Source: Nocardioidaceae bacterium (lineage in GTDB: Bacteria > Actinomycetota > Actinomycetes > Propionibacteriales > Nocardioidaceae). From it: a stretch of DNA of 64,000 nt. A model generated the notes under the pieces. The model made no database searches. It was given only the letters and a program-made list of their open reading frames with translations, and was not told where the DNA came from. This document shows, in pieces, positions 6,455-13,476 of the stretch. The stretch is taken from the NCBI GenBank assembly GCA_017744365.1, contig JAGIBL010000003.1, positions 372,001 to 436,000 on the forward strand, read 5' to 3'. The stretch's first letter is position 1; every line of letters begins with the position of its first letter. A program made the translations under genes and the position numbers.

Positions 6455-7666
6455 ATGTCGAAGGCCCGGCTGGTCATCACCGCTGTCGAGATCGAAGGCC
6501 GCAGCGTCGCCGACGTCGCGGCCTCCTACGGCCTCTCCCGCTCCTGGATCTACGAACTCCTCAACCGCTACCGCACCGAGGGCGAGGCCGCCTTCGAACC
6601 GAAGTCACGCCGACCGCACACCTCACCCACCGCGATCCCCGACAGCACCATCGACCTGATCGTGCGGCTACGCAAACAACTCACCGAATCAGGACTCGAC
6701 GCCGGCCCCGACACCATCACCTGGCACCTCGCCCACCACCACCACATCCAGGTCTCGGCCTCCACCATCGCCCGCACCCTGACCCGCCAGTCCCTCGTGG
6801 AACCCCAGCCAAAAAAACGACCCAAAGCCTCCTACACCCGCTTCGAAGCCGCCCAACCCAACCAGACCTGGCAATCAGACTTCACCCACTACCGCCTAGC
6901 CAACGGCCAAGACACCGAGATCATCACCTGGCTCGACGACCACTCCCGCTACGCACTCCACGTCACCGCCCACCGCCGGATCACCGGACAGATAGTCCTC
7001 GACACCTTCCGCAAAACCGCCCACCAGCACGGCTATCCCGCCTCAGTGCTCACCGACAACGGCATGGTCTACACAACCCGGTTCTCCGGCGGCCGCGGCG
7101 GCCGCAACGCACTCGAGACCGAGCTGCAACGCCTCAACATCGTCCAAAAGAACTCCCGACCCAACCACCCCACCACCTGCGGCAAGTGCGAACGATTCCA
7201 ACAGACACTCAAGAAGTCGCTGACCGCCCAGCCCACCCAGCCCACCACCCTGACCGAGCTCCAAACCCTCATCGACACCTTCGTCAACGCCTACAACAAC
7301 CACCGACCACACCGGTCACTACCGCACAAAGCAACCCCAGCCACCGCCTACCAAGCACGACCCAAAGCCAGCCCCAGCGCCGACCGCAGCACCGACATCC
7401 ACCACCGCGTCCTGGCCGACATCGTCGACAAAGACGGCAAGCTCAGCCTCCGCCTCCACGGCCGCATGCACCACATCGGCATCGGCCGCGAACACGCCCG
7501 AACCCCCGTCCTCAAGCTCCTCGACGACCTCCACCTCAGAGTCATCAACGCCGCCACCGGCGAACTCCTCCGCGACCTGACCATCGACCCCACCCGCGAC
7601 TACCAGCCACTCGGCCGACCACCCGGACCACAACCCCGAAAACACAGAAGTCCGGACCCCAGATAG
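6455..7666 (+). CDS. IS481-family transposase
   Basis: This is a 403-aa DDE transposase. An N-terminal helix-turn-helix (VADVAASYGLSRSWIYELLN, residues 16-35) is followed by an HTH_32-type segment and the rve integrase core. The catalytic triad is Asp in QTWQSDFTHY, Asp in VLTDNGMVYT and Glu in GKCERFQQTL. NNHRPHRSL and the C-terminal IGIGREHA segment are typical of actinobacterial IS481 elements. It is full length with no internal stop. The stop codon lies inside a terminator hairpin. It acts in trans on the element's own ends. Confidence 0.93.
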   Translation: MSKARLVITAVEIEGRSVADVAASYGLSRSWIYELLNRYRTEGEAAFEPKSRRPHTSPTAIPDSTIDLIVRLRKQLTESGLDAGPDTITWHLAHHHHIQVSASTIARTLTRQSLVEPQPKKRPKASYTRFEAAQPNQTWQSDFTHYRLANGQDTEIITWLDDHSRYALHVTAHRRITGQIVLDTFRKTAHQHGYPASVLTDNGMVYTTRFSGGRGGRNALETELQRLNIVQKNSRPNHPTTCGKCERFQQTLKKSLTAQPTQPTTLTELQTLIDTFVNAYNNHRPHRSLPHKATPATAYQARPKASPSADRSTDIHHRVLADIVDKDGKLSLRLHGRMHHIGIGREHARTPVLKLLDDLHLRVINAATGELLRDLTIDPTRDYQPLGRPPGPQPRKHRSPDPR

Positions 7667-9966: not shown

Positions 9967-9986
9967 TTGCAGGTTTCTGCGATCAT
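9967..9986 (+). promoter_or_regulatory. Tandem box and -10 of the LuxR-type regulator
   Basis: TTGCAGG-TTT-CTGCGAT (9967-9983) is a direct repeat with a 10-bp period. It runs into GATCAT (9981-9986), which sits six bases before the GTG start, the leaderless geometry common in this window. The 15-bp core (9968-9982) matches 13 of 15 bases of a box in front of the peptide gene (11421-11435). It probably binds the regulator itself. Confidence 0.5.
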
Positions 9987-9992
9987 CGACGC

Positions 9993-10994
9993 GTGGGCCT
10001 CGAGTACGACGCAACGCATCGCCGTCTCCTGGAGACCGACGCGGGCGACCTGTACCAGAAGGTCATCCTCGAGGGCTCCATCAGCAGCGACGACCCACGC
10101 ATCGCCAAGGGCGCCCCGGACCACCCTGCTTTTGCCTTCCTCGTCGACCTCGGGCTGCTCGGCTACGACCCCGGCACCGACTCCTACCTCCCCGTCGACC
10201 CGGCCACCGTCCAGTCCCGCGTGGTCGCGCCGATGGGCCAGCGCGCGGCCGACCTGCTCGCCGAGTCGACGGGCTGGGCGAACGCCTTCGCCGAGCTCGG
10301 CCTGGCCTTCCGTCGTACGTCGCTCGCGGACCAGCCGATCACCGAGCTGCGCGGCGGGCCGAACATCAACCGGTTCCTGACGGCGGCGGTCGGCGATGCC
10401 CAGACCGAGCTGCTCACCGCCGCCCCCGACGGCGCGCGTCCCGGAGCCCAGCTGGCGCAGGCGATCGAGCGGGACAAGCCGGCGCTGGCCCGCGGCGTGA
10501 AGATGCGCACGCTCTACCAGCACTCGGCGCGACGCAGTGTGGCCACCCGCGACTACGTCGAGGAAGTCTCCAAGCTGGGCGCCGAGGTGCGCACGCTCGA
10601 GGAGTTCTTCAACCGGCTGATCATCGTCGACCGGCGGCTGGCCGTCGTACCGGGCGCCGAGGGTGCGCACGTGGCGATCGCGATCCACGAGCCGAACCTC
10701 GTCGCCTACCTGGTCGACATCTTCGAGCGGTTCTGGGCTCGGGCCCGGGCGTTCACCGATCGCGAGGCCTCGACCGAGCGCGAGATCGCCGAAGACGTGC
10801 ACAACATGACGATTCGGATGCTGGTGGAGGGTCACAGCGACAACGCCAGCGCGAAGCGGGTCGGGGTCAGCACCCGCACGTACGCCGGCTACGTGGCTTC
10901 GCTCAAGGCCGAGTACGGCGTGGAGACCCGGTTCCAGCTGGGCTACGCGATCGGTCAGCAGGAGATGCGCGAGGAGGAGGAGTCCGCGGAGTGA
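9993..10994 (+). CDS. LuxR-type HTH transcriptional regulator with TrmB/PLD-like sensor region
   Basis: This is a 333-aa cytoplasmic regulator. Residues 1-110 resemble a winged-helix N-terminal part. Residues 115-255 look like the phospholipase-D-like fold found in TrmB-type sensors, without an HxK catalytic motif. Residues 275-325 are a LuxR-class HTH (RMLVEGHSDNASAKRVGVST, then RTYAGYVASLKAEYGVETRF). The GTG start is chosen because the protein begins there with family-like sequence and a -10-like hexamer lies six bases upstream. It is convergent with a 50-aa secreted-peptide gene, and both have a matching upstream box. The regulator class is clear. Sensing of the peptide is inference. Confidence 0.8.
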   Translation: MGLEYDATHRRLLETDAGDLYQKVILEGSISSDDPRIAKGAPDHPAFAFLVDLGLLGYDPGTDSYLPVDPATVQSRVVAPMGQRAADLLAESTGWANAFAELGLAFRRTSLADQPITELRGGPNINRFLTAAVGDAQTELLTAAPDGARPGAQLAQAIERDKPALARGVKMRTLYQHSARRSVATRDYVEEVSKLGAEVRTLEEFFNRLIIVDRRLAVVPGAEGAHVAIAIHEPNLVAYLVDIFERFWARARAFTDREASTEREIAEDVHNMTIRMLVEGHSDNASAKRVGVSTRTYAGYVASLKAEYGVETRFQLGYAIGQQEMREEEESAE

Positions 10995-11021
10995 CGTTCG
11001 CGGTGTACCTCGGGAATTGAC

Positions 11022-11052
11022 AAGGGCGGCGAGTGGGGGGCTCGCCGCCCTT
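11022..11052. terminator. Bidirectional terminator between regulator and peptide gene
   Basis: AAGGGCGGCGAG (11022-11033) and CTCGCCGCCCTT (11041-11052) form a perfect 12-bp stem with a 7-nt loop. The complementary A/T ends allow use from both sides. It lies between the convergent regulator and peptide genes. Confidence 0.85.
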
Positions 11053-11145
11053 CATCACGAGACGGGCCGGGGGTGGCAAGAGGCCAGGTCTGGGGGTCGA
11101 CGTGGCGTCCTCGTCTCGAGTCTTCAGTTGTCCCTCTCGGGTCGC

Positions 11146-11298
11146 TCAGTTCGGCCAGCCGGTGTCCATCGGGATGGCCACGCCACCCGGCTTGGGCTTT
11201 GCCACGGCCGACTCGGACGCAGCAGTGGTGCCGGCGAAGATGCCGACCGTCAGGAGCGTCGCAGCAACGACGCGAACAACGCGCTTCAGGGTGCTCAT
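11146..11298 (-). CDS. Small secreted peptide precursor (50 aa)
   Basis: This is a short gene with a clear ribosome site (GGGAGG, 9-10 bp before the ATG). The N-terminus MSTLKRVVRVVAATLLTVGI has basic residues followed by a hydrophobic core, and a probable cleavage site follows near GTTAA (residues 23-27). The rest, SESAVAKPKPGGVAIPMDTG and then WPN, would be a roughly 23-residue exported peptide without cysteines. No enzyme motif is present. It stands next to, and convergent with, a LuxR-type regulator and has the same tandem box upstream. The most economical reading is a signalling peptide or cell-surface peptide under that regulator. I do not recognise a named family. Confidence 0.75.
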   Translation of the reverse strand: MSTLKRVVRVVAATLLTVGIFAGTTAASESAVAKPKPGGVAIPMDTGWPN

Positions 11299-11383
11299 TG
11301 GTGGGTGCCTCCCAGTTTCGCCGGCCGCTCAGGGGACGCGACCGGATACACCAATCCTGGCTCAACGCGCTGACGCGGACCAA

Positions 11384-11446
11384 CCTGAGGGCTGCCTCAG
11401 GATCGTGCAGTGCACCTTCCTGCAAGTTTCTGCAAGCGGCTGTCAA
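11384..11446 (-). promoter_or_regulatory. Promoter/operator region of the small peptide gene
   Basis: Reading toward the peptide gene there is a perfect TTGACA (11446-11441, overlapping the stop of the VOC gene). Next comes the tandem box CTGCAAG-TTT-CTGCAAG (plus-strand 11420-11436), then the odd palindrome GTGCAGTGCAC (11405-11415), and then CCTGAGG-GCTG-CCTCAGG (11384-11401). No good TANNNT -10 is present at the correct spacing, which fits an activator-dependent promoter. The peptide ATG is 86 bp further on. Confidence 0.5.
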
Positions 11447-12679: not shown

Positions 12680-13180
12680 TCAGCCCCAGGTGCAGCGAAC
12701 TTGGGTGGAGTAGACGGTCGTCCCGCTCGCCTTGATTTTTCCACGCATGCATTCGGACAAGCTGCCTGGCGGGATTTCTGCCGGACTGCGATAGAAGCGA
12801 GCCCCCCAGGTCTGGCCGGCACCGATCGAGACTGCACCCGTCGAGTCCCAGTGGCTACCGGCGATCGCTCCACCTGAGGAGTTCGTCCATTCATAGCCGA
12901 ACTGCACACTGATGGTCCTTGGCGTGGCGTCACTATCTCGGTCGTACCTGACGGTCAGCGTGGTCATCTTGCCCGTACTCGTGTAGCACCACGCGAAGGT
13001 CAGCTTGCCGTTCGACAGGTAGTTGTACCCGACCTTCGACGCCGTGCCGCTAGCGCAGTACTGGACGTTGTAGTTCACCTGCTGTGCAGCAGTCGCAGCG
13101 CCAGGCATCGCCACCACCGCCGTAAGTGCAACCACGATCGTCATCAGGGAGCGTCTGAAGGTCTTTGAAGCCGTCAGCAT
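12680..13180 (-). CDS. Secreted protein of unknown function
   Basis: This is a 166-aa exported protein that I do not recognise. A Sec signal peptide covers about residues 1-32 (RRSLMTIVVALTAVVAMPGA, then ATAA as the likely cleavage site). The mature part is rich in Tyr, Trp, Ser and Gly and carries four Cys (QYCAS, FAWCY, SECMR, VRCTW), possibly two disulphides. This is compatible with a small beta-rich extracellular domain. The start is supported by AAGGAG about 10 bp upstream. It is a single gene between a VanZ-like gene and tRNA-Ser. Confidence 0.75.
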   Translation of the reverse strand: MLTASKTFRRSLMTIVVALTAVVAMPGAATAAQQVNYNVQYCASGTASKVGYNYLSNGKLTFAWCYTSTGKMTTLTVRYDRDSDATPRTISVQFGYEWTNSSGGAIAGSHWDSTGAVSIGAGQTWGARFYRSPAEIPPGSLSECMRGKIKASGTTVYSTQVRCTWG

Positions 13181-13333
13181 GAGAACACCTCTCCTTCTCT
13201 GTCGCACCGACTGAGTTCGAGAGGTCGGCCCCGCCTCGACACACCTGCGTAGCGGGTGCCGAGCTCTCGGCAGGAGGACGGATCGAGCCAGCGATTCATT
13301 ACGCGATCGCGTCCATGCGCTGGAACAGACGAA

Positions 13334-13369
13334 AGAGCCCCCGGCGAGATCACTCTCGTCGGGGGCTCT
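13334..13369 (-). terminator. Terminator downstream of tRNA-Ser(GCU)
   Basis: AGAGCCCCCGGCGAGA (13334-13349) and TCTCGTCGGGGGCTCT (13354-13369) pair with one mismatch around a 4-nt loop. It starts 14 bp beyond the tRNA 3' end. Confidence 0.75.
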
Positions 13370-13382
13370 ACCGTCACTCGTC

Positions 13383-13476
13383 TGGCGGAGGTGGAGGGAT
13401 TTGAACCCTCGATGGGGTTGTAGCCCCAAACCCGCTTAGCAGGCGGGCGCCATAGACCGGACTAGGCGACACCTCC
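13383..13476 (-). tRNA. tRNA-Ser (anticodon GCU)
   Basis: This is a class II tRNA with a long variable arm. The acceptor stem GGAGGTG pairs with CACCTCC, the anticodon loop is CTGCTAA, the variable stem is GGGGCT...AGCCCC-like and the T arm is GGGTTCAAATCCC. An encoded CCA is included (13383-13385). Confidence 0.95.

Follow-up and report, generated by a model that had tools for sequence, protein, structure and literature searches.

The locus described here raises the question of whether a regulator and the small exported peptide encoded opposite it form a peptide-signalling pair. It lies in a window (the whole stretch of DNA analysed) of 64,000 nucleotides from a Nocardioidaceae bacterium (contig JAGIBL010000003.1, positions 372,001 to 436,000), whose source genome is 4.76 Mb in size. 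An initial annotation, made from the sequence alone, had described a regulator with a TrmB-like sensor part and a LuxR helix-turn-helix (HTH) convergent with a 50-codon gene, and had proposed that the mature peptide is either sensed through this regulator or is its output.

Architecture and conservation of the pair

Both open reading frames (ORFs) were found as annotated, as were the ribosome site of the small gene and the MDTGWPN ending of its product (Table 1). The hairpin between the two genes, previously placed one base off, does have a perfect stem and is probably a bidirectional terminator. The leader of the peptide is probably cleaved after SAVA, as judged by eye, and its tail, KPKPGGVAIPMDTGWPN, holds a D-T-G-W core. 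Regulator and peptide have one match each in their own genome at E ≤ 0.001.

Table 1 Features of the regulator–peptide locus, in window positions
Feature	Position	Strand	Remarks
Half-operator-like element TGCA-N6-TGCG, directly 5' of regulator start	9968–9981	+	Found by eye; suggestive only
Regulator gene	9993–10994	+	GTG start; 333 amino acids
Hairpin between the convergent genes	11023–11053		12-bp perfect stem; 7-nt loop; −26.4 kcal/mol
Prepropeptide gene	11146–11298	−	ATG start; 50 codons; Sec-type leader
Ribosome-binding site GGGAGG of peptide gene	11308–11313	−	
−10-like box CAGGAT of peptide gene	11354–11359	−	Operator at fixed offset
Operator dyad TGCA-N6-TGCA-N-TGCA-N6-TGAG	11396–11424	−	Extra upstream TGCA extends site to 11434

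The regulator adjoins a gene that we take to encode a phosphoenolpyruvate carboxykinase-like protein, upstream of which lies an ORF (6455–7666, plus strand) that is presumably transposase-like, given an integrase core seen by eye. On the minus strand, a long ORF at 12680–13429 has no convincing match in a Pfam search; its probable true start yields a secreted protein (MLTASKTFRRSLMTIVVALTAVVAMPGAATAAQQVNYN...), and the part of the frame 5' of it, which is probably spurious, runs into tRNA-Ser(gct) at 13383–13476. No transporter or processing gene was recognized by eye next to the pair in the window.

The regulator has matches at E ≤ 0.001 in 45 of 58 relatives, and those of 50–80% identity fall in the Nocardioidaceae; Nocardioides-type genomes usually carry one regulator locus each. 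A regulator-profile scan of named genomes gave 578 confirmed matches, and among the best 80, which were used, 79 are titled Nocardioides, Marmoricola or Nocardioidaceae and one Actinomycetota. Combined with the loci of the other relatives, these 80 make up 91 distinct loci, almost all from Nocardioidaceae. A minus-strand ORF with a Sec-like leader followed by D[ST]xW lies downstream of the regulator in 80 of 89 testable regions, whereas such ORFs occur in 0/89 regions downstream on the plus strand, 0/89 upstream on either strand and 1/91 antisense to the regulator. Export was judged by a simple Sec rule rather than by a signal-peptide program, and Sec-like ORFs regardless of motif are common at control places (45/89 downstream plus, 44/91 antisense to the regulator); specificity is therefore carried by the motif. 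When a wider stretch is scanned, 81 of the 91 loci have a convergent gene for a Sec-leader peptide that holds D-[S/T]-x-W. Small secreted-peptide genes, which the initial annotation had asked to be sought beside homologous regulators, are thus the rule rather than absent, and the pairing is strongly supported.

Seven of the ten loci without the strict motif show variants or a lost start: TSWG (L078), DYQW (L081), DLTW (L098), DITW (L102, L104 and L106), and a DTSWP peptide without a clear start (L101). Of the others, L062 is cut off where its contig ends, the regulator frame of L068 is disturbed and at L126 no peptide was seen beside the regulator.

The regulator itself is best described as a TrmB/TrmBL2-like sensor part with an added C-terminal HTH of LuxR/HTH_23-like appearance, an assignment that rests on sequence similarity. 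A profile of 22 orthologues matches archaeal TrmBL2 (PDB 5box, E 1.9e-7, residues 18–252), in keeping with the TrmB-like sensor first proposed, and the same orthologues weakly match the DUF7436, TbsP_N, HTH_23, PLDc_2 and TrmB models. At E ≤ 0.1, Pfam TrmB is found in 2 of the 22 and HTH_23 in 15. On the LuxR HTH of the initial annotation, the matches point both ways: besides the HTH_23 matches, a Streptomyces-like orthologue (L290) resembles the LuxR GerE model (E 0.0048; 16.9 bits, below the Pfam cut-off of 23.5), but the C-terminal HTH of the window regulator, taken alone, is not recognized by any Pfam model, GerE included. No Pfam or NCBIfam family covers the window protein convincingly. 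Among the Pfam matches of the regulators there is no AHL-binding or receiver domain, and no TPR family appears among those of the 22 orthologues at E ≤ 0.1.

The peptides and their operator

The window peptide has no Pfam or NCBIfam family match, and a plain sequence search with it at E ≤ 0.1 gives matches in 19 of the 58 relatives, some of them within long unrelated frames. Nevertheless, the peptide ORFs evolve as coding sequence, with a pN/pS of 0.5 and 890, 692 and 1510 changes at the three codon positions (92 pairs of at least 60% identity). The conserved core is D-x-x-W and the remainder of the mature part is free. A conserved tail of the D-x-G-W-P kind first suggested is present, but that exact ending is too narrow and was rejected as a rule: P is one of several residues that follow the core, and many precursors end in D-x-x-W-G or have the core directly after the leader. 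The latter arrangement, with the core following an AxA-type leader end (APAQA, then DTSWG...; by eye), is found in many species. Among the precursors of the 81 loci, 64 hold one motif copy, 13 two, three hold three and one holds four, and some peptides have cysteine pairs, for example DTSWGCGGYC. Tandem-repeat precursors favour a matured signal. The Phr leader model TIGR04429 matches one scanned peptide, that of L301, below its cut-off (E 0.01; 16.3 bits against 25), probably just through the hydrophobic leader; the six other scanned peptides, including that of the window, show no match.

Column counts of the peptide upstream regions reveal a conserved 29-bp dyad, TGCA-N6-TGCA-N-TGCA-N6-TG. 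The pattern TGCANTGCA occurs upstream of 66 of the 81 Nocardioidaceae peptide genes, 90–125 nt before the start in 62 of these, and TGCA-N5..7-TGCA is present in 71/81 peptide upstream regions compared with 0/81 coding stretches. This element also occurs in 14/81 regions upstream of the regulator (0/81 coding stretches), and TGCA-N6-TG-type elements 5' of the regulator, listed by eye for 19 cases, are present in seven close relatives and absent from the other eleven. The operator is strongly supported.

With the 66 operators aligned, an A....T pair typical of a −10 box lies at offsets 54–56 in 65 promoters, other offsets reaching at most 10, and no −35 column stands out. As the −10 box usually lies 7 nt from the transcription start, the centre of the dyad falls near −62, the position of a class I activator. 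This position, the fixed −10 spacing and the lack of a −35 column are the main grounds on which activation, rather than repression, is argued. Between promoter and ribosome site, the 5'-UTRs of the peptide genes show recurrent hairpins with C-rich loops (GGGCCATTCCGTGGGCCC, GTCATCCCCTGTGAC, CCGGTCGC..GCGGCCGG); perfect stems of at least 6 bp occur in 21/81 compared with 69/810 shuffles, a modest excess, and the window hairpin (about 11321–11345) is imperfect.

At E ≤ 1, an operator sequence model finds sites in 22 of the 24 genomes of the genus; it fails in exactly those two that have no regulator match, one of which is 75% complete. Weak matches (E 0.15–0.86) were obtained in three order-level genomes without a close orthologue (G038, G046 and G048). 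In a further chosen set of Nocardioidaceae, the model finds the operator in 18 of the 20 genomes that have the regulator, all but G148 and G340, and in 0 of 15 without a regulator match at E ≤ 1e-40. This co-occurrence supports but does not prove recognition by the regulator, because operators of this kind served to train the model and the pattern partly reflects loss of the whole locus. The peptide gene thus looks to be controlled from a conserved operator that comes and goes with the regulator, which would make it an output, one of the two options put forward initially.

Further operator copies and relatives beyond Nocardioidaceae

The window operator is unique in its genome with two long patterns, and the shorter TGCA-N6-TGCA-N-TGCA leads to three places. 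Across the Nocardioidaceae, 30 further operator sites were assessed (18 of 19 exact non-peptide sites, G024:C23 being left out, and all 12 model-only sites). A Sec-leader ORF of at least 150 amino acids starts 60–180 nt downstream of 17 of them (9/18 exact, 8/12 model-only), whereas this holds for 0 of 20 reversed-pattern sites and for 176 of 3000 positions drawn at random from those loci; the remaining 13 do not precede a long Sec ORF. The reversed-pattern sites are 20 of 25 (all 15 of genus g1, one of g11 and two each of g8 and g4). Six sites of another family, f3 (L217–L222), were inspected but not counted, as their genomes have no close regulator orthologue. The −10 box appears less clean, by eye, in the exoenzyme promoters than in the peptide promoters.

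Several of the products are proteases. M4 thermolysin-type proteases follow operator copies at five loci (L205, L253, L257, L259 and L262), and in the window's own genome a copy precedes a kumamolisin-like protease (L203; PDB 4ne7, E 3.4e-12), which has look-alikes, by eye, at L214, L255 and L267. The same genome has an M23 peptidase gene after an operator copy (L204) that the automatic Sec rule missed. Other products are an M57-like protease (L213), a GmrSD_C-domain protein that is probably a nuclease (L212) and He_PIG secreted proteins (L215 and L216). Proteases encoded behind such operators could also mature the peptide.

A strong extra operator copy lies between a HAD-hydrolase gene and one that is presumably DUF4439-like in ten genomes (L316, L317, L319, L322, L324, L327, L328 and L331, near position 1500; also L207, L208 and L210). 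In seven of eight loci examined, it is followed by a long hairpin with its apex 118–206 nt on (z −2.6 to −6.5 against mononucleotide shuffles); at L324 the pattern used gave no RNA segment. Five of the hairpins are closely alike, with the apical ACRTCTCGGGAGTTCCCC and compensating stem changes (by eye), L327 and L331 deviate, and an Rfam search of the five alike loci gave no match. We regard this hairpin as a candidate structured RNA, possibly a regulated sRNA.

Class-wide, 54 of 394 genomes have a regulator match at E ≤ 1e-40: 22 are Nocardioidaceae, 31 belong to genus g41 of a Streptomyces-like family (f22) and one to family f20. The f22 genomes measure 6–11 Mb and are taken for Streptomyces on account of the plasmid matches given below. 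We examined the 19 best f22 matches (14 genomes) and the f20 match. In 17 of the 19 f22 regions, but not in the f20 region, the regulator is divergent from a Sec-leader ORF in which a D-x-x-W-type core occurs in two to seven copies. The repeats include DVGWG-type (seven copies), DSGWT (seven), DSGWN/D (five), DPGWT-type (five), DPVWD (four), DTGWG (three) and others; one peptide has N-x-x-W cores instead. Gene order is thus inverted, convergent in Nocardioidaceae and divergent in the Streptomyces-like genomes, and the partnership is kept. A box in the Streptomyces-like intergenic regions, CCTGAACGTGCAGGAACATGATGC, was considered as a counterpart of the Nocardioides operator; only 3 of 17 (L295, L304 and L305) beat their own 60 shuffles with the Nocardioides matrix, and we therefore do not claim it as the same site.

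Searching plasmids with one of the Streptomyces-like regulators returned 128 records, 121 of them from Streptomyces and all below 60% identity; several of these relatives are annotated as LuxR-type. Among nine records looked at, four have a Sec-like D-x-x-W peptide beside the regulator (L310, L345, L346 and L347), each annotated as a hypothetical protein. One peptide (DSAWG) lies near beta-methylarginine genes; the other three (DDQWG, DDQWG and DDEW) precede regulators that have AfsA-related genes behind them. Such surroundings suggest that specialized metabolism is under peptide control. No peptide was found in the other five records with the pattern used, which would miss D-D-x-W forms.

Distant regulator paralogues of larger genomes were also considered as partners of D[ST]xW peptides. 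This was rejected: in the 34 of 40 fetched regions in which the regulator could be located, there is no such Sec peptide within 900 nt. Scans around these paralogues, one of them upstream under a less strict leader rule, show Sec-leader peptides ending SCWQM or VCWQM about 100 nt from a divergent distant paralogue in two genomes (L132 and L140) of a genus with 8-Mb genomes; these may represent a further peptide pair within this superfamily of receptors.

A model of peptide signalling and its relation to known systems

The reading that we favour, and hold to be probable, is that the regulator and the D-x-x-W peptide constitute a peptide quorum-sensing system in which the regulator activates the gene for its pheromone precursor together with an exoenzyme regulon. 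Computation shows the pairing, the conserved motif with its repeats, the operator and its tie to the regulator, the promoter geometry and the secreted-protein targets. On this basis, the small gene would give rise to a Sec-exported prepropeptide, from which signal peptidase and extracellular proteases would free a short D-x-x-W peptide (in the window, from the ...MDTGWPN tail). The peptide would then re-enter the cell and bind the adjacent cytoplasmic TrmB-like regulator as its ligand, and the response would depend on cell density. The regulator in turn would occupy the dyad of TGCA repeats, whose centre lies some 60 bp before the predicted transcription start, and act there as a class I activator. 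It would raise expression of its own peptide gene, a positive feedback, and of a small set of genes for proteases and other proteins that are secreted. By analogy, one to four motif copies in Nocardioidaceae and two to seven in Streptomyces-like genomes are how pheromone precursors may be expected to look. The resemblance to TrmBL2, a family with an effector domain, is likewise counted for a putative peptide receptor.

The strongest alternative, which we consider unlikely, makes the regulator a metabolite sensor that induces secreted scavenging proteins, the D-x-x-W peptide being a merely co-regulated product (a protease inhibitor, a metal or substrate binder, or a surfactant) rather than the ligand. 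TrmB proteins are sugar or metabolite sensors and, to our knowledge, none is known as a peptide receptor; the TrmBL2 match and the weak TrmB and TbsP similarity would suit this reading, as would the presumed phosphoenolpyruvate carboxykinase-like neighbour and an operator that suggests the peptide to be an output. Against it count the persistence of the peptide beside the regulator despite the inverted gene order, the tiny, often repeated mature parts in which D-x-x-W alone is kept, and the D-x-x-W peptides that adjoin plasmid regulators in other gene settings (four of nine records).

Operator and regulator might also be connected less directly, with a different regulator reading the operator and the TrmB-like neighbour being linked for other reasons. 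TGCA-type dyads do occur in genomes without a close orthologue, one of them (L217) adjoining what we take to be a PadR-like gene. Against this stands the agreement between operator and regulator in Nocardioidaceae (18/20 versus 0/15), although it is not independent of whole-locus loss, and we find this explanation improbable. We give even less credence to a role of the peptide as an antimicrobial or a contact toxin of small size, made under the regulator alongside degradative enzymes. It is secreted and short, sometimes with cysteine pairs, and shares its operator type with exoenzymes, but no immunity or dedicated export gene was recognized by eye among the neighbours, a toxin would not usually be built from a four-residue core repeated in tandem between free linkers, and Nocardioides-type genomes usually have a single regulator locus. 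A chance origin of the small ORF, for which its shortness, the lack of a family and the weak plain search could speak, is ruled out for practical purposes by its occurrence in 80/89 regions versus 0/89 at control positions and by its coding-type substitutions.

Returning to peptide quorum sensing, we think on balance that these loci represent an undescribed, widespread Actinomycetota family, with TrmB-like/LuxR-HTH receptors, diversified D-x-x-W pheromones in up to seven copies, control of proteases and a structured RNA in Nocardioides, and a plasmid link to specialized metabolism in Streptomyces. Putative pherotypes are DTGW, DTSW, DSGW, DVGW, DPGW, DPVW, DLGW, NSSW and DDQW. If correct, an encoded and probably unmodified pheromone would come with a defined receptor gene, operator and regulon, making the question of actinobacterial communication signals directly testable with a synthetic six-residue peptide, and exoenzyme secretion, perhaps also Streptomyces gene clusters, could be influenced in a new way.

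To all appearances the pair is a bacterial system of peptide communication that is new to the literature; no description of it was found in an open-access collection without preprints and most subscription papers. According to the introduction of one study, Actinomycetota signals are typically enzyme-made small molecules (PMC10075063), and the parts of a 2016 review consulted name gamma-butyrolactones and cyclic or modified peptides as general signals in Actinobacteria and find the LuxR proteins there intriguing, since no AHL is known to act in these bacteria (PMC4748050). Actinobacterial LuxR-type regulators may share the C-terminal HTH of LuxR appearance with the regulator described here, which differs in having no AHL-binding or receiver domain among its Pfam matches; the sections consulted of a paper on such regulators mention no peptide partner gene (PMC3466318). 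Archaeal TrmB/TrmBL2 resembles the regulator over residues 18–252, whereas the added C-terminal HTH, the bacterial host and the conserved peptide partner set the latter apart.

The closest likeness in working is to the RRNPP(A) systems of Bacillota. PlcR–PapR and NprR–NprX are RRNPP systems with propeptide and exoenzymes as targets, and it is these two in particular that the present pair resembles: genes for a Sec-exported propeptide and a cytoplasmic regulator are adjacent (directly so at 81/91 loci), a short matured peptide is expected, and the regulator's own propeptide and exoenzymes appear as targets. At 333 amino acids, the regulator also falls within the range of 250–500 given for RRNPP receptors in the part of the source consulted (PMC10075063). 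However, the receptor is TrmB-like with a C-terminal HTH and the phylum differs; because no TPR receptor was found, the pair is, on present evidence, not an RRNPP member, though similar in working. Finally, the tandem-pheromone Phr propeptides of phage Rap systems likewise hold several pheromone copies, which, in the portion of the report consulted, are processed by extracellular proteases (PMC11343458); the receptor is unrelated, and here up to seven D-x-x-W copies are carried by a single precursor.
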